Origin: a virus
Reading direction: 5' to 3' (one strand)
IMG/VR virus record: IMGVR_UViG_3300031277_000044
Span: 1 to 25,669 of that record
DNA length: 25,669 nucleotides
The notes below the pieces were generated by a model, which saw nothing but the letters and a program-made list of their open reading frames with translations, was not told the DNA's origin and did no database searches. Shown here one piece after another: positions 2,890 to 22,375 of the stretch. Within the stretch, counting starts at the first letter, position 1, and each line of letters starts with the position of its first letter. A program made the position numbers and the translations under genes.

Positions 2890-2941
2890 TTTCTTTCCTG
2901 TAGGAATACTCGCTAATTTATTCGTAAGTATCCCTTCATCT

Positions 2942-2959
2942 ACAGTATTACTCTACTGT
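2942..2959. promoter_or_regulatory. Palindrome ACAGTA-N6-TACTGT, upstream of dnaB
   Basis: A perfect 6-bp inverted repeat with a 6-base centre (ttactc), in the 74-base gap between the Cys-rich gene and dnaB. The same arms and spacing occur at 3252-3269. It is either an operator for a phage regulator or an RNA hairpin. A second, imperfect inverted repeat lies between it and the dnaB start (about 2903-2932). Confidence 0.55.
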
Positions 2960-2963
2960 GCAG

Positions 2964-3242
2964 TTAGACTTGCATCCATTCTTTGTAATATTGGCTCGCC
3001 TTCGCTCTGATTCTATCTATTGGTGGTGAAATATTTGGGTGTTCACTAATCCACCGATTCCTCTTTTGAGCCCATGCAATATAAGGACAATCGAGGCTGT
3101 GAATAGGATTTCGACCACCAAATCGTGACGCTCCGCAGGTGCAGGTTTTAGAGAAAAATATCTCGACAGGAATTTGCCCGCAAACGCAGGTATCTCCATC
3201 TTGATACCAGTGCATATTATTGTCGCCGCATTTATTCATCAT
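2964..3242 (-). CDS. Cys-rich hypothetical protein (probable zinc binder)
   Basis: A 92-residue protein not recognised by family. It has Cys pairs suited to metal binding: CVCG (about 19-22) and CTCG (about 34-37), a later HSLDC, and a Trp/Tyr-rich C-terminal half. The start is ATG at 3242 or 3239; GAGG at 3248-3251 is the ribosome site. That site touches a perfect 18-bp palindrome, so expression may be controlled there. It sits between the DnaD-like loader and DnaB genes. A zinc-ribbon accessory factor is a guess from context. Confidence 0.6.
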   Translation of the reverse strand: MMNKCGDNNMHWYQDGDTCVCGQIPVEIFFSKTCTCGASRFGGRNPIHSLDCPYIAWAQKRNRWISEHPNISPPIDRIRAKASQYYKEWMQV

Positions 3243-3251
3243 TTAATCCTC

Positions 3252-3269
3252 ACAGTATACGGATACTGT
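3252..3269. promoter_or_regulatory. Palindrome ACAGTA-N6-TACTGT abutting the ribosome site of the Cys-rich gene
   Basis: The arms are 7 bp if extended (acagtat/atactgt) with a four-base loop, and 6 bp in the form shared with 2942-2959. The element ends one base before the GAGG ribosome site of the gene starting at 3242. It could be a DNA operator or a translational-control hairpin. No clear -35/-10 pair is seen next to it. Confidence 0.6.
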
Positions 3270-3295
3270 ATGTCATGGGATAGTTACCAGAAAAC

Positions 3296-4045
3296 TTAAT
3301 CTTGATATTTCAGAGTGCGGCCCTTCTCCCACGCCTTGCCAGGGTCCATACCCTCGACCTTCCATCTCTCAAGTATCTTCTCAACGTAGCTGAGATTGCG
3401 CTTATTGTGTGTAACAGCTTCTTGAACGGCCTTTGCGAACCATCCTTCGGGGTATTCGTCCCTCGCCTTCTTGATGCGCTCGGCCAGCATCGGCGTTAGC
3501 ATACCGATGTTATCTTCGTAGGCCTTGACCATACTACCATAAACTGGGTCCATAATGGTTGACTTGTCAAATTCAGTTTTCTCACTGGGCCGAGCTTTCG
3601 GTTTTGCTTTGACGCCCTTTGCCGCCTTCTCCTCTTGCTCGCGCTTGGATAATGGCGAACCATCATCGGCCCATAGTTCAGGCTTCTCACGCAGTAATTC
3701 GTCGATGATGTTCTGCGGCGGCTTGGGGGTTTTCCTGGCATGGCGAGCTTGGGGGTAATTAAATCGTGGGAAGGCCGCAAAAACCGAGAAGTCGCGGCCA
3801 TCGTCGGCAGTCCAAGATAGTATTATGCCAGCCTTCAATAGCTCGACCTGCCGAGCCAGGATGTCTCTTGACGTTACCTCCTTGAGGGGGTAGGCGTGCC
3901 CCTTGAGAAATGACAAAGTGCTCTGGTAACATCCATAATCATCAGTCAGCACAAGGCATCTACCCCAGTGTACCTCCGCCTCGGCGGATAGTATGTTGAA
4001 GTTCGGCGAGTCACAGATGCTTTCGGAAATCCATCTCTTAGGCAT
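3296..4045 (-). CDS. DnaD-like helicase loader / replication initiation protein
   Basis: A 249-residue protein. The N-terminal 95 residues look like a winged-helix replication-initiator domain. A Lys/Pro-rich linker (about 100-165) follows. The C-terminal part (about 168-232) has the DnaD/DnaB_2 pattern: Y..MV.AYE.NIG..TP near the start and NLSYVEKILERW at 218-229. Such phage proteins bind the origin and load the replicative helicase. The ATG at 4045 is preferred over TTG at 4048 and lies behind AAAGGTGG; it overlaps the previous stop by 8 bases. dnaB is the next large gene downstream, supporting a loader role. Confidence 0.8.
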   Translation of the reverse strand: MPKRWISESICDSPNFNILSAEAEVHWGRCLVLTDDYGCYQSTLSFLKGHAYPLKEVTSRDILARQVELLKAGIILSWTADDGRDFSVFAAFPRFNYPQARHARKTPKPPQNIIDELLREKPELWADDGSPLSKREQEEKAAKGVKAKPKARPSEKTEFDKSTIMDPVYGSMVKAYEDNIGMLTPMLAERIKKARDEYPEGWFAKAVQEAVTHNKRNLSYVEKILERWKVEGMDPGKAWEKGRTLKYQD

Positions 4046-6946: not shown

Positions 6947-7114
6947 TTACCTTTTCCTTAAAGCATCGGTGACTATCTTGTCCTTGATATAATCCGGGAC
7001 GTTCTGCCACCGGCCCTTACTTTTTCTCACCCTCTCCCGCAATATTGCGTCAATATCATTGGGCAACCTGATTGCCCTCGGCATGGTCGTATTGCTCGGT
7101 CTGTAGTTTGCCAT
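6947..7114 (-). CDS. Ribbon-helix-helix-like DNA-binding protein, 55 residues
   Basis: ATG at 7114, TAA at 6947-6949. Residues about 11-55 run RAIRLPNDIDAILRERVRKS, then a short loop, then VPDYIKDKIVTDALRK. This is the layout of a ribbon-helix-helix (CopG/Arc-like) domain: one short beta strand with alternating residues, then two helices, the second beginning at a Val-Pro-Asp turn. Such proteins bind DNA as dimers and often repress small operons. It follows the XRE gene by 28 bases and may be a second early regulator. It is a candidate for binding the ACAGTA palindromes, which is inference only. Confidence 0.6.
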   Translation of the reverse strand: MANYRPSNTTMPRAIRLPNDIDAILRERVRKSKGRWQNVPDYIKDKIVTDALRKR

Positions 7115-7142
7115 TTATATCGCATCTCTGGCGCTGTTACAG

Positions 7143-7343
7143 CTAATCTGCGGCCTGTGGCGCCAGTCTGCCCAGATGTTTCAGCCTCAAGTTTTCAAGA
7201 GCCTTTAACGAAAGCGGGCTTGGCCGACTTATTCCCCTCTCCCATCGCATCACGGCATGATACTCGCAGCCGAGCTCCTCTGCAAATCCTTGCTGGCTCA
7301 TGTTGAGGCTTAGTCGCAGTTCCTTAATCTCGTCGGCAGTCAT
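7143..7343 (-). CDS. XRE-family (Cro/CI-type) transcriptional regulator
   Basis: A 66-residue protein made of a single lambda-repressor-like helix-turn-helix domain: IKELRLSLNMSQQGFAEELG, then CEYHAVMRWERGISRPSPL. The 'MSQQGFAEELG' helix, the 'AVMRWERG' recognition helix and the Pro-Ser-Pro-Leu turn are the standard marks. It is small like Cro, with no cleavage or oligomerisation domain. It is the first gene after a strong promoter whose -10 lies about ten bases from the ATG, so its mRNA may have almost no leader. It likely controls this early operon, possibly including itself. Confidence 0.85.
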   Translation of the reverse strand: MTADEIKELRLSLNMSQQGFAEELGCEYHAVMRWERGISRPSPLSLKALENLRLKHLGRLAPQAAD

Positions 7344-7352
7344 AGCACTTAT

Positions 7353-7381
7353 ATACTAGAACTTCTTAGAATGTTTGTCAA
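7353..7381 (-). promoter_or_regulatory. Early promoter with possible overlapping operator
   Basis: On the minus strand, TTGACA at 7381-7376 is a perfect -35 box. After exactly 17 bases comes TAGTAT (7358-7353), a 4/6 match to the -10 box. The spacer contains TTCT-A-AGAA-G-TTCT, overlapping short inverted repeats that could be an operator for the XRE protein. The ATG of the XRE gene (7343) is only about 9 bases after the -10, so the transcript would be leaderless or nearly so. Confidence 0.7.
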
Positions 7382-7408
7382 CCCCTTTCAATGTTAAATT
7401 TTCATAAA

Positions 7409-7437
7409 GAAAATCCCCCGCCCGTAAAGAGCGAGGG
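7409..7437 (-). terminator. Rho-independent terminator ending the late operon
   Basis: On the minus strand 7437 to 7415 folds as CCCTCGCTC, loop TTTAC, GGGCGGGGG: nine pairs including two G-U wobbles. It is followed by ATTTTCTTT. It lies about 80 bases after the stop of the hydrolase gene (7517) and just before the early promoter. It separates late from early transcription. The rest of 7438-7516 holds no gene that I can see. Confidence 0.75.
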
Positions 7438-7516
7438 TCTCATAGGAGGTTAGGTGGGTAGGAAAGGAAATTTATTTCGGAATAATTTATCTGTTTACTT
7501 TTTGGCTTTGGGCTTT

Positions 7517-8143
7517 TCATTGCGAGCCTGAAACCAGATGCCGATGAAGCCTCTTGAGCTGTCCCCCTCTGAAATGTTTGAGTAACACCAGGCGGCCATC
7601 CTCGATAGCCTGCAGATAGACGGTAGGGATGTCCCATATCTCCTCCTGGCCAGGGGGCTCAATCGGCCTCTTGATTCGCTTCATGGCGTAGGCAGCCTCC
7701 TCAGTGCAGAGATACTTGTCATTGGCCGAATACCTCAAGTCCTGGGAGGTATACGGCGGGAATTTGAAATGAAGCATCAATCTTACGGCATCAGCGATTA
7801 AATACAGGAAGTCAATGTATCCGTAATCCTTACGCCCTATTTCAGATGTATAGAGCACAGCGCTTAGTCCTATTTTCTCAGTGATATCCGGCGCGCGGTA
7901 GAACTCGATATCGTCCTCGGCATACTCGGCGAAAAAGCGGGCGCAGCTCGGCCCCTTATCCAGAGATTCCCGCGTCTCGAAATCTACGAACTTGCCGTCT
8001 TCAAATACGGGATGCCCGATAATGCCGAAGTGGTAGCGGTCAGTATGCCTGCCGCTCGGAGACTTGGTTAAATTACGGGATGCCCAGCCCCAGATGCCTT
8101 TCCCCTTTGTTGCGAAAATGTCGCCCGGCCAGATTTCAAACAT
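7517..8143 (-). CDS. Permuted NlpC/P60-like (YiiX-type) cysteine hydrolase, lysis candidate
   Basis: A 208-residue protein. The order of marks fits circularly permuted NlpC/P60 papain-fold enzymes: an N-terminal GDIFATKGKG strand, then RYHFGIIGH with His38 as the likely catalytic base, an acidic DFETRES strand, a helical DYGYIDFLYL section and a late KYLCTEEAAYAM motif with Cys146 as nucleophile. In the canonical fold the Cys comes first; here it comes after the His. These enzymes cleave peptide or amide bonds, often in cell walls. It follows a small membrane protein and precedes a terminator, a usual place for lysis genes. The ribosome site is AAGGAGGG. No signal peptide is seen. It could instead be a virion-borne hydrolase. 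Confidence 0.6.
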   Translation of the reverse strand: MFEIWPGDIFATKGKGIWGWASRNLTKSPSGRHTDRYHFGIIGHPVFEDGKFVDFETRESLDKGPSCARFFAEYAEDDIEFYRAPDITEKIGLSAVLYTSEIGRKDYGYIDFLYLIADAVRLMLHFKFPPYTSQDLRYSANDKYLCTEEAAYAMKRIKRPIEPPGQEEIWDIPTVYLQAIEDGRLVLLKHFRGGQLKRLHRHLVSGSQ

Positions 8144-8243
8144 ACTGTTCCCTCCTTAGAGTATCGCGGCTACTACGCCAACGGCTCCTTTATTTTCCGG
8201 CGGGCATTTGTCAATTCTGTTACGTTACACATAATTCAGGCTC

Positions 8244-8495
8244 CTACAAGAAATGTATTACCGATGCCGCATCAAGGATGCCGGTAATGGCAAGGGACGT
8301 GATAAGCAAGAGTAGTATCACTCGGTTCGTCCATGACCTCTTTTTGTTATTGGCTATATCATCAGTCATGGCCTTCATCTCTTTGCGCACACTAAAGCCC
8401 TGTCGCGCCGTAAATTCTAAGAGTTCACGGTCGCCCATCTTCCCGATGTTGCGTTCAAATGCAATCTCTGTCAGGCAATCTTCACCATCAGGCAC
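8244..8495 (-). CDS. Small membrane protein, holin-like candidate
   Basis: An 83-residue protein starting at GTG 8495 behind AGGAGG. The first 56 residues are charged and helical (RELLEFTARQGFSVRKEMKAM), followed by one hydrophobic segment at about 57-82 (RVILLLLITSLAITGILDAASVI). This layout, a cytoplasmic helix with a C-terminal transmembrane segment, resembles XhlA-type holin accessory proteins. The gene lies between the tail-tip gene and the hydrolase. The 100-base gap that follows (8144-8243) has only frames under 20 codons, plus TTGACA at minus 8214-8209 without a good -10. Confidence 0.55.
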   Translation of the reverse strand: MPDGEDCLTEIAFERNIGKMGDRELLEFTARQGFSVRKEMKAMTDDIANNKKRSWTNRVILLLLITSLAITGILDAASVIHFL

Positions 8496-11805: not shown

Positions 11806-14800
11806 TTATTGCTTACTTAACTTCGTCCTTATTTTACGATATTGAGAAGTAATTGTCTTTATCTTCCTGTACTGACTGGTAATAGTCTCTATCCTGAAAA
11901 CCTTGCCTGGCTTGGAGATAGTGGCAGATGCTACCGCGCCGACACTTACGGCGGCAGAACGTATTGCAGCCATAGTGCGGGAGGCCGTCGCCACCGCACC
12001 GACAGAAACACTGGCCGAGCGCAAAGCCCCGAAAGTACGACTGGCAGTTGCTACTACTCCGACTATCACGGAGGAACTGCGTACCGCTCCGAATGTCCTT
12101 ACGGCGCTAACAACCACTCCCACCGATACCGCCGCCGACCTCGCAACGGCAATCGCCCTTGACGCAGAGACCGCCACGCCCACCGAGACGGATGCTGACC
12201 GCAAAGCAGATAACGTCCTGGAGGCCGTAGCAACTATGCCTGCGGCCACGCTGGCTGAGCGGATTATACCGATGGCTCTTGATGCTGACACCAGAACTCC
12301 GACTATTGTGCTGGCGGAGCGCACGATATTAATTATTATCCCTGTGTATGGAGATGATACAACCATTCCCCAGTGAGCTTTCGTACTTGCAGGCGAACCA
12401 GATGGAGTACACATCAGGTCAACCACTACACCGTCGCCGACTGTATCGATGTTATTGGTGTCGTTTCCCGTTTTGTTTGCCCCGTCAATTACCACCGATA
12501 AGTTGCCGGTAGCGCCGCTAATCCGTGACTGGAAGGTGTAGGACTTGCCAGAACCGGGGGCATCATTCAGTTCTACGTAGAGCTTCTTGAATCGGCACGA
12601 CTGGGCAAGCTGGTAAGCATTATACTCCGCAAAATACCACGGCACCGTAGCGTCACACTCAAAGGAGTGATAGGCTATGGAAGATGTCTCCAGTGAGCTT
12701 ATAGTATTTCCAAGTGCGATGCACTCTCCTGGAATGTCGGATGTAAATGTAAAACCAAAGCGTATCCTTCCTGTGGCCGACGTGGGAGAGTTTAACCTCT
12801 CCATCTTTAGACTGAGCTTATCACCAGCGCTTACGGAGACTTCATGCTCAAGGTCGTTTACTATGGTCTCCCCACACATCAAATCAACAGTTATAGCAGT
12901 ATCTTCAAGGTTTTTCCTCAATGTAATCCTAAAACCAGCGGTAGGGTCTCCTGTTGCAGCCGAACCTGCGTTAACGCGAAAATTCCTTATTGTTCCCGTT
13001 GTTGGACATATTTGATACCGAGCCGTTTCGTCATCGGTCCAAGCGTAAAGGTCAACAGGAAGCAGGGCATTATACCTTGTAGCATATAAGTGCGTGCATC
13101 CGCCGCAGTTCCCAAGTAGAAGGCTATCGTAAGAGTTGACTCCCGTAAACTTGCAGGTATATGTTGGCGAACCACCGGCAGGAGTCCCGGATGATACCTC
13201 TTTAACGGCTACCAAATCCCCCGCTTCGACCAAGGCCGTGTGAACTAAATCGCTGGCCGTGGTATCACTATCTGAGACTGTGCAAGTTATGTCAGTATCA
13301 ACTCCGTTTAATTGTATCGTGAAGGTATAAGATGAGCCTTCTCCGGGAGCAGCACTAAGGCGGACATAGAAAGAGCCAAGCTGCCCCGGCGAGCAAATAA
13401 CCTGGGCGGCACCACCGAACTCAGCCGGGGGAAGCCCCGCCCTTAGAGAATAATAGACTGTTCCATTTTTGAGGGTCTGGTAACCAGGCAAACCGCCTAT
13501 AATAATCTGTGCCATCGGAAATTCAGTTGTCACGCCGATAGATACAGATGCCGAGCGTATAGCCGCCATCAATCTTGACGCTGTAGCGACTATCCCCACT
13601 GAAACCGCCGAGCTTCTTGTTATTCCAATAGCCCGGAAGGCACTCACGGCGGCGCCAACGCTGGTTGCGGCTGACCGGACTATGCCGATTGCTTTGGACG
13701 CCGTAGAGACCACGCCCACCAAGACGGACGAAATGACAAGCCTACCGATATTCGGGGTGGCCGATGCGACAACTCCCACCGAGACCGAGGCGCTTCTCGT
13801 TATGGCTATGGCCCGGCTCGCAGTTGCTACCACGCCGACGATTACGGATGAAGCCCTGGCAGCGCCCACAGCCCTTGAAGCAGTGGCGGCAATCCCGATT
13901 ATCACGCTCGCCGCCCTTGTAGTTGTAACAGCACGTACAGCGCTTGTCAGTATACCTACGGCGACGCTGGCAGACCTGATTACCCCGGCTAGACGGGAGG
14001 CGGTGGCGACCGCCCCGACTTGCACCGAAGCCGAGCAGGTAGTACCCATAATGCGAGAGGCATTAGCTACTATCCCGATAATGACCGACGCTGAGCGAGA
14101 TACTCCGGCTATCCTTGTGACGGAAACGAGTGCTCCTATACTGACTGAGGCACTTTTTATCATGCCCGCAATCCTTGATGCGGTAGCCACGACACCGACA
14201 CTGACGGAGGCCGACCTCGCAACACTGGCTATCCGAGAAGCGGTTACAGCTACGCCCACCCTGACACTTGACAAGGCAAGCCAGCCGAAAACGCCTATTG
14301 CCGAAACCAGAACACCGACAGATGTTGCCGCCGATACAACCCTCCCCCATCTCCCAGCGGCAGATACGTGTGCTCCCACCGAGACCACCGCGCTCCTGGT
14401 AGCCGAAAGCGCTCTGGTTGCGGTAGCCACGACGCCGACATAGACGGATGAGCTTCGTGTCGCACCGATTACGCGCGAAGCCGTTGCCACGATGCCCGCA
14501 ATAACCGAGGAACTTCTTATCATGCCGACGGCGCGGGAGGCGGTGGTGACGATGCCTACGATTACGGACGATGATATGACCTTACCCCAACTCACCGATG
14601 CTGAGACAGCGACCCCTACGGAGACGGCGGCGCTTCGTGGTGCGCCTAAAATCCTTGTGGCTGCCGCCAAAATGCCAACGGAGACCGCCGAGGATAAAAT
14701 TCGCCCCCAGCTTTTGGTGGCTGACACAAGCACCCCGGCGATGACAGATGAACTCCGGTTCGCCCCCATCGCTCTAGAAGCAGTCGCCACAACACCTACG

Positions 14801-16494
14801 GATACGGATGCCGAGGCATGGGTAATAAACGTAATCTCGTCGCTGTAACTGTAGCCTTCCGAGTTGTGGGCATAGGCGCGGGCGTAATACCTCATGGGGC
14901 TGCCAAGCCCTGTCAGGCTACGTGTAAATGCGCCGGTTCCGAAGTCCCCGCTTTCGTCCTCATAGTTGGCATAATCGCTGTCTCCTGGAGCGGTATTTCC
15001 GGGGTCTCCGTGAGAGGATGTGTCGTAGACAATTCCCCGGTGGTCGCAGTTTTCTCCGCCAGTGTCGGTAATATTGCCGTTTCCGGTAGCAGCGGTCGCT
15101 GCTATATCCGAGGCAGCTTGAGTAGTTACTGTGGGGGCAGCTGCTACTGTATAAGTCACTACCAGCTTGGGTTTATAGCCCTCACCTTTCTCTGCCGCAT
15201 AATTAGCAAGGTAAAACTTTTTACCACTTGCCCACGCAGGGGGCGTATCAGTAGCATCATAAGTAGCTTCACGTGTCCCCAGTCTGGTAATTGATGTTTT
15301 AGATACTGCTTCCAAGCCAGTAGCGTTCAGAGCAAAGTCATTCCAGAATGGGTCTGCTACTTTCCAGTCTGCATAGGCTATAGGGGTGTCACAGAACGGG
15401 GTAGTTCCAAATCTCCCAAAGTCTTCCACATCAAAAGCACCCGTTGTGTGTGTTGATGTTGTCCCAAATATATTCACCGTAGGCGATACTTCAAGTGTAT
15501 CCGTCTTGGCCACACCGTAAACAGAAAAAGTGGCTTCTGTAATAGTCACATCATCCGGCAATCCAGAGGTATCAAAACAGTAAAGGTTACGGTATAAATA
15601 AGTGTAAGTATCAGTCTCACCACCAGACTCCAGCCTATTCCCATAGTGTGAGTCTTGAGCATCATAGCCTTGAAGACCAGGAGAGGTTGTTCTGTCATGC
15701 AAAGTGCTCCAAGAAACACCTGTATCTTCAGCTCTTAGACTAGTATCCCCAGGTGCTCCACCTGTATCGGGGTAGAATGTTTCAGGGCTATCTGAAACTG
15801 TGAAAGGATATTCAGCCTCATTAAAGACTGAAAGCGGTATTAATTCCTCATCCCCACTCTTGAACTGTCCTAATTTGAGTTTGAAATCTCCCTTTTGGTT
15901 GTACTTAATCCTGACTTCATTAAGAGGGTTGGATTCAAATACCCATGAACCGAGGATGCGCCCCTGAATGAGCCTTAGCCTTCTCTTGCAGACGCCATAA
16001 TCCCACTCTAGAACGTTGTTCTGATAGTTCTCGTTTACGGGGTCTACAGGCAACAAGACGGGGGCGGAGGGTGTCTGCTCTACGCCGTCAAGAAAAAGCT
16101 GGGCGTGGTAGTTTAGTTTGTCGTTCTTCTTCCTGCCGTCAGGCTGGTCGTTTTTGACCTTGATTTCAACCTGAGTGTCCTGAACGGTACACTTGAACAG
16201 GTTGTTTTTCTCGGTGAACTTGTTGCCCTGCTTCTCCCACCCGACATCTACCTTTAGACCATCGGCATCTACCATCGGCAGGCCGGAGAATACGCCAAAT
16301 CGCTTATTGCTTTTCAGGTCACGGTAGAATTTGGCATACGGAGACCGCCCTTTGACCCGCTTCCCATCAACAAAGGGAGAGGCATAATCCTGCGTGAACT
16401 CCACGTAATCCGGGTCTATGCCTCTTTTCCTTAGATTAGACAGTAAAACGGGGTCGGTGACTATTCTCTTGGGGTCGGTGACTTTATCGGGCAT
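11806..16494 (-). CDS. Giant repeat-containing adhesin / virion appendage protein
   Basis: A 1562-residue protein. In order: an N-terminal domain (1-235) of unknown type; a beta-sandwich region (about 240-450) ending in a 'YKPKLVVTYTV' strand, as in DNRLRE-like domains; a fibronectin-III-like domain (about 452-558, GLGSPMRYYARAYAHNSEGYSYSDEITF); a first array of 21 full and one partial copies of a 20-residue repeat (560-987); a 400-residue segment with three similar beta-sandwich units (988-1391); a second array of six full and one partial copies (1392-1525); and a basic tail with a duplicated ITSQYRKI motif. The repeat consensus is RSASVSVGVVATASRAIG plus two variable residues. It is probably an elongated surface fibre or host-binding appendage. 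The start at 16494 directly abuts a 24-codon ORF. There is no signal peptide, as expected for a virion protein. Confidence 0.7.
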   Translation of the reverse strand: MPDKVTDPKRIVTDPVLLSNLRKRGIDPDYVEFTQDYASPFVDGKRVKGRSPYAKFYRDLKSNKRFGVFSGLPMVDADGLKVDVGWEKQGNKFTEKNNLFKCTVQDTQVEIKVKNDQPDGRKKNDKLNYHAQLFLDGVEQTPSAPVLLPVDPVNENYQNNVLEWDYGVCKRRLRLIQGRILGSWVFESNPLNEVRIKYNQKGDFKLKLGQFKSGDEELIPLSVFNEAEYPFTVSDSPETFYPDTGGAPGDTSLRAEDTGVSWSTLHDRTTSPGLQGYDAQDSHYGNRLESGGETDTYTYLYRNLYCFDTSGLPDDVTITEATFSVYGVAKTDTLEVSPTVNIFGTTSTHTTGAFDVEDFGRFGTTPFCDTPIAYADWKVADPFWNDFALNATGLEAVSKTSITRLGTREATYDATDTPPAWASGKKFYLANYAAEKGEGYKPKLVVTYTVAAAPTVTTQAASDIAATAATGNGNITDTGGENCDHRGIVYDTSSHGDPGNTAPGDSDYANYEDESGDFGTGAFTRSLTGLGSPMRYYARAYAHNSEGYSYSDEITFITHASASVSVGVVATASRAMGANRSSSVIAGVLVSATKSWGRILSSAVSVGILAAATRILGAPRSAAVSVGVAVSASVSWGKVISSSVIVGIVTTASRAVGMIRSSSVIAGIVATASRVIGATRSSSVYVGVVATATRALSATRSAVVSVGAHVSAAGRWGRVVSAATSVGVLVSAIGVFGWLALSSVRVGVAVTASRIASVARSASVSVGVVATASRIAGMIKSASVSIGALVSVTRIAGVSRSASVIIGIVANASRIMGTTCSASVQVGAVATASRLAGVIRSASVAVGILTSAVRAVTTTRAASVIIGIAATASRAVGAARASSVIVGVVATASRAIAITRSASVSVGVVASATPNIGRLVISSVLVGVVSTASKAIGIVRSAATSVGAAVSAFRAIGITRSSAVSVGIVATASRLMAAIRSASVSIGVTTEFPMAQIIIGGLPGYQTLKNGTVYYSLRAGLPPAEFGGAAQVICSPGQLGSFYVRLSAAPGEGSSYTFTIQLNGVDTDITCTVSDSDTTASDLVHTALVEAGDLVAVKEVSSGTPAGGSPTYTCKFTGVNSYDSLLLGNCGGCTHLYATRYNALLPVDLYAWTDDETARYQICPTTGTIRNFRVNAGSAATGDPTAGFRITLRKNLEDTAITVDLMCGETIVNDLEHEVSVSAGDKLSLKMERLNSPTSATGRIRFGFTFTSDIPGECIALGNTISSLETSSIAYHSFECDATVPWYFAEYNAYQLAQSCRFKKLYVELNDAPGSGKSYTFQSRISGATGNLSVVIDGANKTGNDTNNIDTVGDGVVVDLMCTPSGSPASTKAHWGMVVSSPYTGIIINIVRSASTIVGVLVSASRAIGIIRSASVAAGIVATASRTLSALRSASVSVGVAVSASRAIAVARSAAVSVGVVVSAVRTFGAVRSSSVIVGVVATASRTFGALRSASVSVGAVATASRTMAAIRSAAVSVGAVASATISKPGKVFRIETITSQYRKIKTITSQYRKIRTKLSKQ
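11920..12321 (-). repeat. 60-bp repeat array 2 (C-terminal adhesin block)
   Basis: Six full and one partial 60-bp units in frame, coding for 20-residue repeats at residues 1392-1525. No insertions or deletions break the period. Units share Arg-Ser-Ala-Ser-Val and Val-Gly-Val positions, but many codons differ synonymously, so the copies are not recent. Confidence 0.9.
13534..14817 (-). repeat. 60-bp repeat array 1 (central adhesin block)
   Basis: Twenty-one full units and one 8-residue partial unit, exactly 1284 bp, in strict 60-bp register (residues 560-987). The consensus matches array 2. Some units depart from it, with Trp-Gly in place of Ile-Gly (units 2, 4 and 8) or loss of the leading Arg (units 3, 5, 9, 10 and 19). 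Confidence 0.92.
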
Positions 16495-20527: not shown

Positions 20528-21577
20528 TTAACCCGTCGGCACGGTGTTGGTGATGTCGGTGATGCGCCCAATCGACCATTTGCTGCCGGGGATAAGGGTC
20601 GTGTGGCATGACAGCCTGTGGGCTTTCGCCAGGTAGTCGGGATGCTTGTCCCAGTATTCGTAGTTGAAGAATTCGCCGTCGTTCTCGGTCTTGCCGAAGG
20701 CGACGCCAACGCCGGGGTCGGGGACCATAAGGCCACCGCGCCGGGCGAGGATGGCGAAGATGGAATACATCCGGGTGCCGGAGCTATACTTCGCCCTGGC
20801 ATCGGAGCCGTAGCCGGTGTTGGCCTGCTCGGCTACGAGGAAGTCACTGGGGATGATGGGCTTTCCGCCGAAAAGCGTGGTAACGCCGCCGACATCATTC
20901 GGGGTGTAAGAAATAAGTCCGAGCGGGCCGGCGCTGTCGTACTTCATGTTGGCGATACCAGCCTCGTGGTATACGCGGGAAATCTGGCGCTGGAGCAGGA
21001 AGGGCATAAGCCAGAAGTCCAATCCGTACTTCATCTCCTCCAGCAAGATGCGCATATTGTTCAAGGCCAGCGCACCCTCGCCTTCGTCGATGTCCCAGTT
21101 CTCGCCGTAGTTGGTTGCCGCCCAGGAGTGCAGGCCGTCCATCTCAAGACTATGGTCGTCATAGGTATAGTCGTCGTAGATGGTCTTGTCGCCGAGCTTC
21201 TTGGTGACGCCCTTCATCATCTCGCCGAGCGAGATTTCCTCGTAGTTGTTGATGCTGCCGTAGATGGCCTGAACGAATTTGTCCAGCTTCTCGTAGAGAT
21301 AGCAGGAGCGCAGGTAGGCCGACTTGCGGCTAACGGTGGCGCCCTCGGTGATAACGGTCTGGCCGCCGACGGCGATGTTCGCTACGTTGCCTTCAACGTC
21401 CGTACCCGACCGGAGCCAGTAGATGAGTTCACCGGAATGGTTGGCCTGGGAGAACGGCAGGAGGTCAACCGGGTTGCCCCGCTTGAAATTCTCGTCAACG
21501 ATGCCCGGTATCAGGGTCGGCAAAGTCAGTTTCAGGACTTCGGCAAGCGTATCATAGTGTCCGCCTGAAAGGGCCAT
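20528..21577 (-). CDS. Major capsid protein (HK97-fold-like)
   Basis: A 349-residue protein preceded by a strong AAGGAGG site and a scaffold-like gene. Features expected of this class of capsid protein are an N-terminal helical region (DTLAEVLKLTLPTLIPG), an extended-loop-like segment (LIYWLRSGTDVEGNVANI), a long central helical part (ALALNNMRILLEEMKYGLD) and a C-terminal region with GGKPIIPSDFLV and ILARRGGLMVPDPG. It would assemble the head shell with the upstream scaffold. No protease gene is visible in the window. The assignment rests on size, texture and gene order. Confidence 0.75.
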   Translation of the reverse strand: MALSGGHYDTLAEVLKLTLPTLIPGIVDENFKRGNPVDLLPFSQANHSGELIYWLRSGTDVEGNVANIAVGGQTVITEGATVSRKSAYLRSCYLYEKLDKFVQAIYGSINNYEEISLGEMMKGVTKKLGDKTIYDDYTYDDHSLEMDGLHSWAATNYGENWDIDEGEGALALNNMRILLEEMKYGLDFWLMPFLLQRQISRVYHEAGIANMKYDSAGPLGLISYTPNDVGGVTTLFGGKPIIPSDFLVAEQANTGYGSDARAKYSSGTRMYSIFAILARRGGLMVPDPGVGVAFGKTENDGEFFNYEYWDKHPDYLAKAHRLSCHTTLIPGSKWSIGRITDITNTVPTG

Positions 21578-21595
21578 AGGGGGTTCCTCCTTGTT

Positions 21596-22375
21596 TTATT
21601 TTCCTCTTGCTCTGTCAATCATGTTGCGCAAGGAGCCTGTTTCACCCCCTAAACTTAAACCCCCATCAGGTTTCCCCTGCACCACGCCGTCCTTGCCGGG
21701 CTGGCCGCCGTTGCCGGGCGGTGGCGTGGTTAGCGTATGCCCGCCGGCTGTCAGCGTCTTGGCAACCGACTCTAGGCGGCTCTCGTCGCCATCCGGCACG
21801 ATGCTAAACAGGACATCGGCATTGAGGTTGTACCTGGCGGCAACATCTGTCGCCGCCTTCTGGGCCTTCCAGGCAGTGATTTCCTCGCTGTCTGTTTTCA
21901 GCTTCGCTTTCGTTTGGTCAAGCTCGGCTCTCTGGGTGGCGAGGTCAATCTCGCGCTGGTCAAGTTCGTGCTTCCTCTTTACCACATTGAAGGCTTCGGG
22001 TTTGTCCTTTGAAGCCTCAATCTCGTCGGCCCACGATTGCTCCTGGGCGACCTTGAGTTGCGCCTGTAAAACGGGAACCTGCGCGGCGGTCGCCTTTGTG
22101 GTCTCAAGCTCGTCACGGACAGGCTTAAACTGCCTGCCCATCTCCGTCCTTGCTTCTTGAATGAGCCTTGAGACCATCTCCTGGGCTTCCGCCTCGGAAT
22201 AAGTTCGGGGAGTGTCGTTCTGAGTACCCTGCTTCCCTGTCTGGGTTCCCGCCGCAGCAGCCGGGGGGACCGTCGGAGGCTGAGCGGGAGGGTTAGCCCC
22301 TGCCGCCGCAGCCGGCGCCGGTTGCCCCGGAGGCGCCTGCGTTCCGCCTTGTAGATTTGCAGTTGTGTCAGCCAT
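21596..22375 (-). CDS. Scaffold-like protein
   Basis: A 259-residue protein lying directly before the major capsid gene. The first 55 residues are Pro/Ala/Gly/Gln-rich and disordered. Residues about 58-180 are strongly helical and charged, a likely coiled coil (LIQEARTEMGRQFKPVRDEL, then HELDQREIDLATQRAELDQTKAKL). The C-terminal part is Gly-rich, ending in a small basic helix (RNMIDRARGK). Scaffolds of tailed phages have this form and bind the capsid through a basic C-terminal helix. The start lies behind GAGGAGG. Confidence 0.75.
   Translation of the reverse strand: MADTTANLQGGTQAPPGQPAPAAAAGANPPAQPPTVPPAAAAGTQTGKQGTQNDTPRTYSEAEAQEMVSRLIQEARTEMGRQFKPVRDELETTKATAAQVPVLQAQLKVAQEQSWADEIEASKDKPEAFNVVKRKHELDQREIDLATQRAELDQTKAKLKTDSEEITAWKAQKAATDVAARYNLNADVLFSIVPDGDESRLESVAKTLTAGGHTLTTPPPGNGGQPGKDGVVQGKPDGGLSLGGETGSLRNMIDRARGK

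Follow-up and report, generated by a model that had tools for sequence, protein, structure and literature searches.

Phage genomes are mosaics with breaks at gene boundaries, a pattern usually ascribed to rare illegitimate or short-homology recombination. Some small genes also travel as MITE-like cargo elements, which have terminal inverted repeats and a target duplication and lack a transposase of their own. In the attC sites of integrons, the folded single strand bears the R''/R' core motifs RYYYAAC and GTTRRRY. Integron gene cassettes are promoterless, are moved by a tyrosine recombinase and have been reported in phages (PMC9892861). In Acinetobacter, Rep_3 plasmids hold dif (pdif) modules, in which single genes lie between short sites, each made of a 6-bp spacer with an inverted arm on either side; pdif reactions need identical or near-identical spacers, and a single module can be exchanged for another where the spacers of the flanking sites match (PMC13141974). 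Phages also harbour short intergenic repeats of other kinds. The stoperators of Cluster A phages, found in many copies in intergenic spaces, are 13-bp asymmetric elements that are bound by a monomer and whose orientation is tied to transcription (PMC9283540). Similarly, the Start-Associated Sequences (SAS) and extended SAS of Cluster K phages, a 13-bp asymmetric element and 17-bp inverted repeats, lie just before the starts of non-structural genes, are absent from hosts and have no known function (PMC3203893).

The locus described here lies in a 25,669-bp stretch of DNA (the window), which is an entire IMG/VR contig and probably a phage fragment. It consists of two copies of the palindrome ACAGTA-N6-TACTGT around a cysteine-rich gene. 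Two inverted arms around a 6-bp centre, found in all phage sites of this family, recall pdif sites. However, pdif arms are 11 bp long, distinct for XerC and XerD and of other sequence, whereas those of the phage sites are 6 bp and symmetric, with inner ends GTA/TAC instead of TAA/TTA. Further, pdif modules reside on plasmids and use host XerCD, whereas the phage sites reside in phages and have only a candidate enzyme. The locus is classed with mobile gene cassettes and, because the arms do not agree with Xer arm sequence, not as a dif module. It resembles integron cassettes in its occurrence in phages and in the type of recombinase considered, but the 18-bp sites have only ACAGTA/TACTGT in common, without core-site motifs, and no IntI was found. 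Unlike stoperators, the phage sites are palindromic and have site-specific spacers, and no spacer-address pattern has been reported for the Cluster K repeats. The likeness to MITE-like elements holds for a second phage contig, G174, but the cargo is swapped between sub-terminal palindromes and most sites are without end repeats.

The palindrome pair and its gene neighbourhood

Site 1 (ACAGTATTACTCTACTGT, positions 2942-2959) and site 2 (ACAGTATACGGATACTGT, positions 3252-3269) are exact matches to the pattern, with the spacers GAGTAA and TCCGTA, respectively, on the coding (minus) strand. No further copy was found on either strand of the window with up to two mismatches allowed, a count that covers this contig only. 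As base composition predicts about 0.001 exact matches per window, and none of 100 dinucleotide shuffles of the window contained one, the pair is well beyond chance, in agreement with a preliminary description of two elements with identical arms and spacing that bracket the gene. The pair is supported as genuine and as functionally tied to the gene between its copies.

The neighbouring genes all share the minus strand, on which the order is a DnaD-like replication initiation gene (3296-4045; PF07261, 1.1e-9; a DnaD-like loader in PHROGs), site 2, the Shine-Dalgarno sequence GAGGA (3247-3251), the cysteine-rich ORF of 92 aa (2964-3242), site 1 and a DnaB-type helicase gene (1549-2889; PF03796, 1.6e-63), so that both replication genes are outside the putative cassette and the cysteine-rich ORF would be its cargo. 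Site 1 lies 4 nt past the stop codon of the cysteine-rich gene and 52 nt ahead of dnaB. Site 2, between the DnaD-like and the cysteine-rich gene, directly precedes the Shine-Dalgarno sequence and extends to 7-bp arms around a 4-base loop, as had been described. No relatives of the cysteine-rich protein were found by an IMG/VR peptide pattern or in phage records, Pfam and PHROGs.

The palindrome looks like a protein-recognised sequence, with two half-sites and near-invariant inner bases; Rfam gave no match. A LexA-like box was rejected, as the half-sites are in the opposite order, which had already been pointed out, and the palindrome is absent from hosts. A promoter at each site was likewise rejected: the Shine-Dalgarno sequence is too near downstream, and the window's sites have no sigma-70-like match nearby.

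Inverted repeats extend outwards from the two sites. The left end of the cassette (end B, GGTAACTATCCCATGACATACAGTA, 3264-3288, minus strand), whose inner six bases form one arm of site 2, and the right end (end A, TACTGTAGATGAAGGGATACTTACG, 2923-2947, minus strand) form an imperfect inverted repeat, and the outer flanks GGTAACTATCCCTTGACATACAGTA and TACTGTAGATGAAGGGATACTTACG are inverted repeats of each other. Of all site pairs, ends A and B give the best outer inverted repeat. No target duplication was seen around the window's cassette, though these inverted end repeats are present. A nine-codon micro-ORF (MKGYLRIN and a stop; 2913-2939, minus strand) starts within end A; at the matching position G174 has MKGYLR and a stop, or a longer ORF beginning MKGYLRSVKC.

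Elsewhere on the minus strand, the window encodes a 66-aa XRE-type HTH protein (7143-7343), without a relative in the other site-bearing contigs, and an HTH_17 protein (290-646) that aligns at 41% identity with the C-terminal region of two paralogues arranged in tandem in the viral contig G011. Those paralogues (7020-7637 and 7661-8278), located between palindromes, have an added Myb/GcrA-like region, and the window's copy may be missing its N-terminus. A 1562-aa protein (11806-16494, minus strand) contains long stretches in which short repeats (SASVSVGVVATASRA and so on) follow one another almost unchanged.

Distribution of the sites in phages and hosts

Relatives of the window's major capsid protein (MCP) in IMG/VR are 39-64% identical to it, and none of those searched for the palindrome (G001, G003, G005, G007 and G008) carries it; dnaB is also absent from the MCP relatives. 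Two of them, G001 and G005, have RecT-like and DnaD-like genes in common with the window, but their DnaD gene adjoins or overlaps the next gene and no such cassette is present. The palindrome is therefore not ancestral to the window's phage family.

Pattern scans recovered it about 55 times across several unrelated environmental phage contigs. A scan for two copies with the window's spacing matched G011 (IMG/VR 3300024262_000007) and G012, a MAG contig labelled Dehalococcoidales. There are 10 exact copies in the 40 kb of G011 and 7 more with one mismatch, compared with none for 20 permuted palindromes, and 9 copies in G012 on four short phage-like contigs. Further scans added G169, G170, G173 and G174 (IMG/VR 3300031651_000030), along with chance matches. 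Single matches within structural genes (G168, G171, G172 and G175) were set aside as chance, and those in coding or probable coding DNA (G011:28991/G170:10618 and G011:37633) were left out as cassette sites. G011 and G170 are related viruses with two beta-clamp-like genes and small membrane proteins, and their structural genes do not clearly resemble those of tailed phages. A search of 156 Dehalococcoidales and 393 Dehalococcoidia genomes gave matches only in G012, in one phage-like contig from G145 and, as a single isolated occurrence, in G070. With the genomes of these presumed hosts nearly empty, the palindrome is a phage feature, and a host regulon was discarded.

Judged with a home-made gene finder, nearly all sites fall between the stop codon of one gene and the Shine-Dalgarno sequence or start of the following one. 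The TAG within ACAGTAG is often the stop codon of the upstream gene. Most sites are 0-10 nt ahead of a Shine-Dalgarno sequence, and AGGAG or GGAGG occurs within 26 nt downstream in 31 of the 52 sites, against 5% at random places. One site (G011:4171/G012C113:2145) lies between convergent genes, ahead of a terminator-like hairpin and with no start codon near, which indicates that the sites are not tied to translation starts. In the arms of the 52 sites, variation falls on the outer bases, and the inner GTA/TAC hardly changes; conservation stops at six bases, and A or C is favoured beside TACTGT on both sides.

Conserved spacers and replaced genes

Homology between phages at sites with the same spacer is often one-sided and ends at the palindrome. 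It is confined to the right side at G011:8272/G012C43:2285 (93% over 150 bp), G011:14332/G012C189:3341 and G011:11451/G012C189:531, and to the left side at G011:5566/G012C43:615 and G011:9354/G012C43:3374. In 12 comparisons, each with at least one homologous flank, differences amounted to 0 of 72 spacer positions, 8 of 144 arm positions and 289 of 1585 positions (~18%) in the homologous flanks. The probability of no spacer change at the flank rate is 4.5e-4 in a non-circular calculation with six addresses, each counted once. It becomes 0.02 once one exception, G011:22702/G012C62:2157, is included; this site lies in a divergent promoter region and differs at three of its six spacer bases, although its arms are equal and its flanks homologous.

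Identical spacers are also shared more widely than expected. The 50 independent contexts contain 16 such pairs, compared with a null mean of 2.2 and a maximum of 12 in 2000 shuffles, several of the address matches depending on one MAG (G012) compared with one phage (G011). The window's GAGTAA recurs in G174, G012, G011 and G170, and its TCCGTA at G174:1303. Within a contig, the 22 spacers of G011 are all different, and repeats of the same spacer are limited to G145, G173 and G174, as direct repeats. In G145 (contig C446, 1765-2227), one gene lies between directly repeated sites with the spacer TTGCGG and could be excised as a circle.

The order of the addresses is kept as well, while the DNA between them is not. 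G011 and G012C43 have the ordered spacers CTTAGA-TTAGCC-GAGTAA-GTTGGA-TGAGTG in common; three of the four intervals are unrelated DNA, and the GTTGGA-TGAGTG interval is 87% identical. Likewise, G012C84 and G011 have TAAGCA, GAGGGA, GTGCAA and CAAGGG in the same order, with different genes from TAAGCA to the next site, in GAGGGA-GTGCAA and in GTGCAA-CAAGGG. Permutation of spacer order gave P = 0.008, 0.04 and 0.17 for three contigs. As far as the alignments can tell, modules between identical-spacer sites differ among phages in the way that exchange would predict, and the palindrome copies behave as recombination junctions.

Replacement and insertion in G174

Protein similarity between the window and G174 is almost nil. 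Both of the window's addresses nevertheless occur in G174 in unchanged order, TCCGTA at 1303 and then GAGTAA at 1553. The flank outside TCCGTA on the left matches the window (25 bp, 96%), and so does the flank outside GAGTAA on the right (48/49 and 37/37 bp, site included), with homology reaching only 19-25 bp beyond the sites on each side. The genes inside are unrelated, namely the 92-aa cysteine-rich gene in the window and a 74-aa zinc-ribbon-like gene in G174. The cassette ends recur in G174: end B is 96% identical over 25 bp to both G174:506-530 and G174:1270-1294, while for end A the region 2923-2971 is 48/49 identical to G174:89-137 and the region 2923-2959 is 37/37 identical to G174:1553-1589. 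For end B, GGTAACTATCCCTTGA was found in G145 as well.

In G174, 25-bp terminal inverted repeats have the palindromes at their inner ends. Two units are present, with a methyltransferase-like gene (unit 1, 506-1210) and the zinc-ribbon-like gene (unit 2, 1264-1597) as cargo, and both combine these repeats with target-site duplication: exact 8-bp repeats border them, TAGTGTGA and TTGATAAA, with chance probabilities of ~9e-5 and 7e-4. When both units are removed, the fragments fuse to one continuous zinc-ribbon ORF, in which the joined flanks read NPISVKCGNCGTYRMKRDNIIDKCPNCGDEEYEYLS up to the stop codon; the restored ORF, a textbook CxxC...CxxC ribbon, ends with GMMKNPISVKCGNCGTYRMKRDNIIDKCPNCGDEEYEYLS and the stop. 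The duplications and the restored ORF establish mobility for G174, from which we infer it for the window's cassette, where no duplication is visible. The same ~100-bp tail of a zinc-ribbon gene (94% identity) follows both GAGTAA sites of G174 (101-202 and 1553-1654), reflecting either a repeated target or a tandem duplication.

Proposed mechanism and candidate recombinase

On these comparisons we consider it probable, though well short of certain, that the palindromes are matched recombination junctions that end a mobile single-gene cassette with the cysteine-rich ORF as cargo. Unrelated environmental phages appear to swap such one-gene cassettes and to insert them at these sites. In the proposed mechanism, the arms are common to every site and the 6-bp spacer is the address of the site. 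Placed at gene boundaries, a site often supplies the upstream stop codon and stands just ahead of the next ribosome site. Phages would exchange the gene held between two addresses, as in TCCGTA-gene-GAGTAA of the window and G174, where the sites double as inner ends of the terminal inverted repeats of an element inserted twice in G174. The exchange would probably be performed by a spacer-matching recombinase, plausibly of the tyrosine type with a dif-like 6-bp centre, since the shared arms, the variable 6-bp centre and the replacement of genes between matching spacers agree with site-specific recombination as in dif modules.

A tyrosine recombinase gene is present in G011, G012 and G170, and its product retains the catalytic residues R, K, HxxR, W and Y. 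The G011 protein, encoded at 20821-21750, matches PF00589 (5e-7) and is distantly like XerA and lambda Int, which are also the best matches of a weak AlphaFold model (pLDDT 64, TM-scores ~0.3-0.4); the model supports no more than the class that Pfam assigns. This enzyme is a candidate and could alternatively be an ordinary phage integrase. Arms of six bases are short for a tyrosine recombinase. No recombinase or transposase was found in the window, G169, G173 or G174, all of which are fragments. Further, the terminal inverted repeats with their 8-bp duplications indicate transposition of the DDE type, which differs in chemistry from spacer matching, so that two processes may be superimposed; this suggests that a transposase is also involved alongside spacer-matched exchange. 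An HNH endonuclease target was dismissed because only G011, G012 and G174 have an HNH protein in common and such an enzyme would do harm to a genome of its own with many cut sites.

Alternative explanations

The preliminary description offered two readings of the pair, RNA hairpins for translational control and operators for an XRE or ribbon-helix-helix protein. Hairpins adjoining the ribosome site that control how the next gene is translated or processed would suit the position of most sites just before a Shine-Dalgarno sequence, and some sites, such as G011:10439 (z about -4), fold better than shuffles. However, the window's hairpins are ordinary in this respect (z -1.45 and -1.69), and changes in the arms disrupt pairs instead of compensating: 21 variants break pairing against 6 that make G-U, no other Watson-Crick pair type occurs at any of the six stem pairs, and only 1 of 15 double variants is compensated, the latter being the fairer test as the sites were gathered by arm similarity. 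With one site also standing between convergent genes, the RNA reading is very improbable. The same uncompensated variation, together with the dyad symmetry and the two-sided preference for A or C, is what operators for a dimeric phage regulator would display, dispersed like stoperators in the gaps of a small-gene region, with the mosaic as a by-product of homologous recombination. More than 20 sites within short intergenic stretches serve L5-type repressors (PMC9283540), and the divergent-promoter exception kept its arms while its spacer diverged. The central bases of operators should be free to drift, but apart from that exception the spacers are inherited exactly and are conserved above their flanks (0/72 against 18%). 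Neither these spacers nor the end repeats and target duplications of G174 are explained by operators. Further, no HTH regulator is common to all site-bearing contigs, most of them fragments, and the window's sites have no promoter-like match nearby. Operator function survives from the preliminary description as the main alternative for the arms, and as an account of the whole pattern we judge it unlikely.

For the exchange itself, the main alternative is short-homology recombination, in which the sites are passive linkers and RecT/Red-type annealing recombinases act on 18 bp of identity without a site-specific enzyme. The window's RecT-like protein (PF03837, 1.2e-4, just below the cut-off) could supply such an activity, same-spacer sites offer 18 bp of unbroken identity, and T4-type phages are known for gene shuffling at conserved regulatory cassettes. 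This explanation deserves serious weight but is doubtful, for it accounts neither for the same palindromic arms at all addresses across unrelated phages nor for the absence of one-base drift in the spacers. The G174 units could instead mean that the system is nothing more than a non-autonomous transposon with terminal inverted repeats, a MITE-like element bearing cargo, whose palindromes are sub-terminal transposase sites and whose shared spacers reflect descent. In its favour are the end repeats and 8-bp duplications of both units and the recurrence of these ends in the window and of one of them in G145. Most sites, in G011, G169, G170 and G012, lack the end A and end B sequences, and the cargo differs between identical addresses, so that a transposon as the sole explanation also seems rather improbable.

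Implications for phage gene exchange

The pattern exceeds what the preliminary description proposed. If recombination at address-bearing junctions is correct, a broader and more tentative idea follows, which we hold to be possible though not the likelier outcome: some environmental phages may possess a natural recombinase-mediated cassette-exchange system, with gene slots bounded by common arms and unique 6-bp address spacers, by which co-infecting and unrelated phages would swap single accessory genes in place and in orientation while the rest of the array is kept. Address-coded cassettes would then be a direct mechanism for a fast trade of small accessory genes among unrelated phages. Such a system would also predict which genes are cargo, and the bracketed genes of unknown function, such as the cysteine-rich ORF, would become candidates for accessory, possibly counter-defence, functions.
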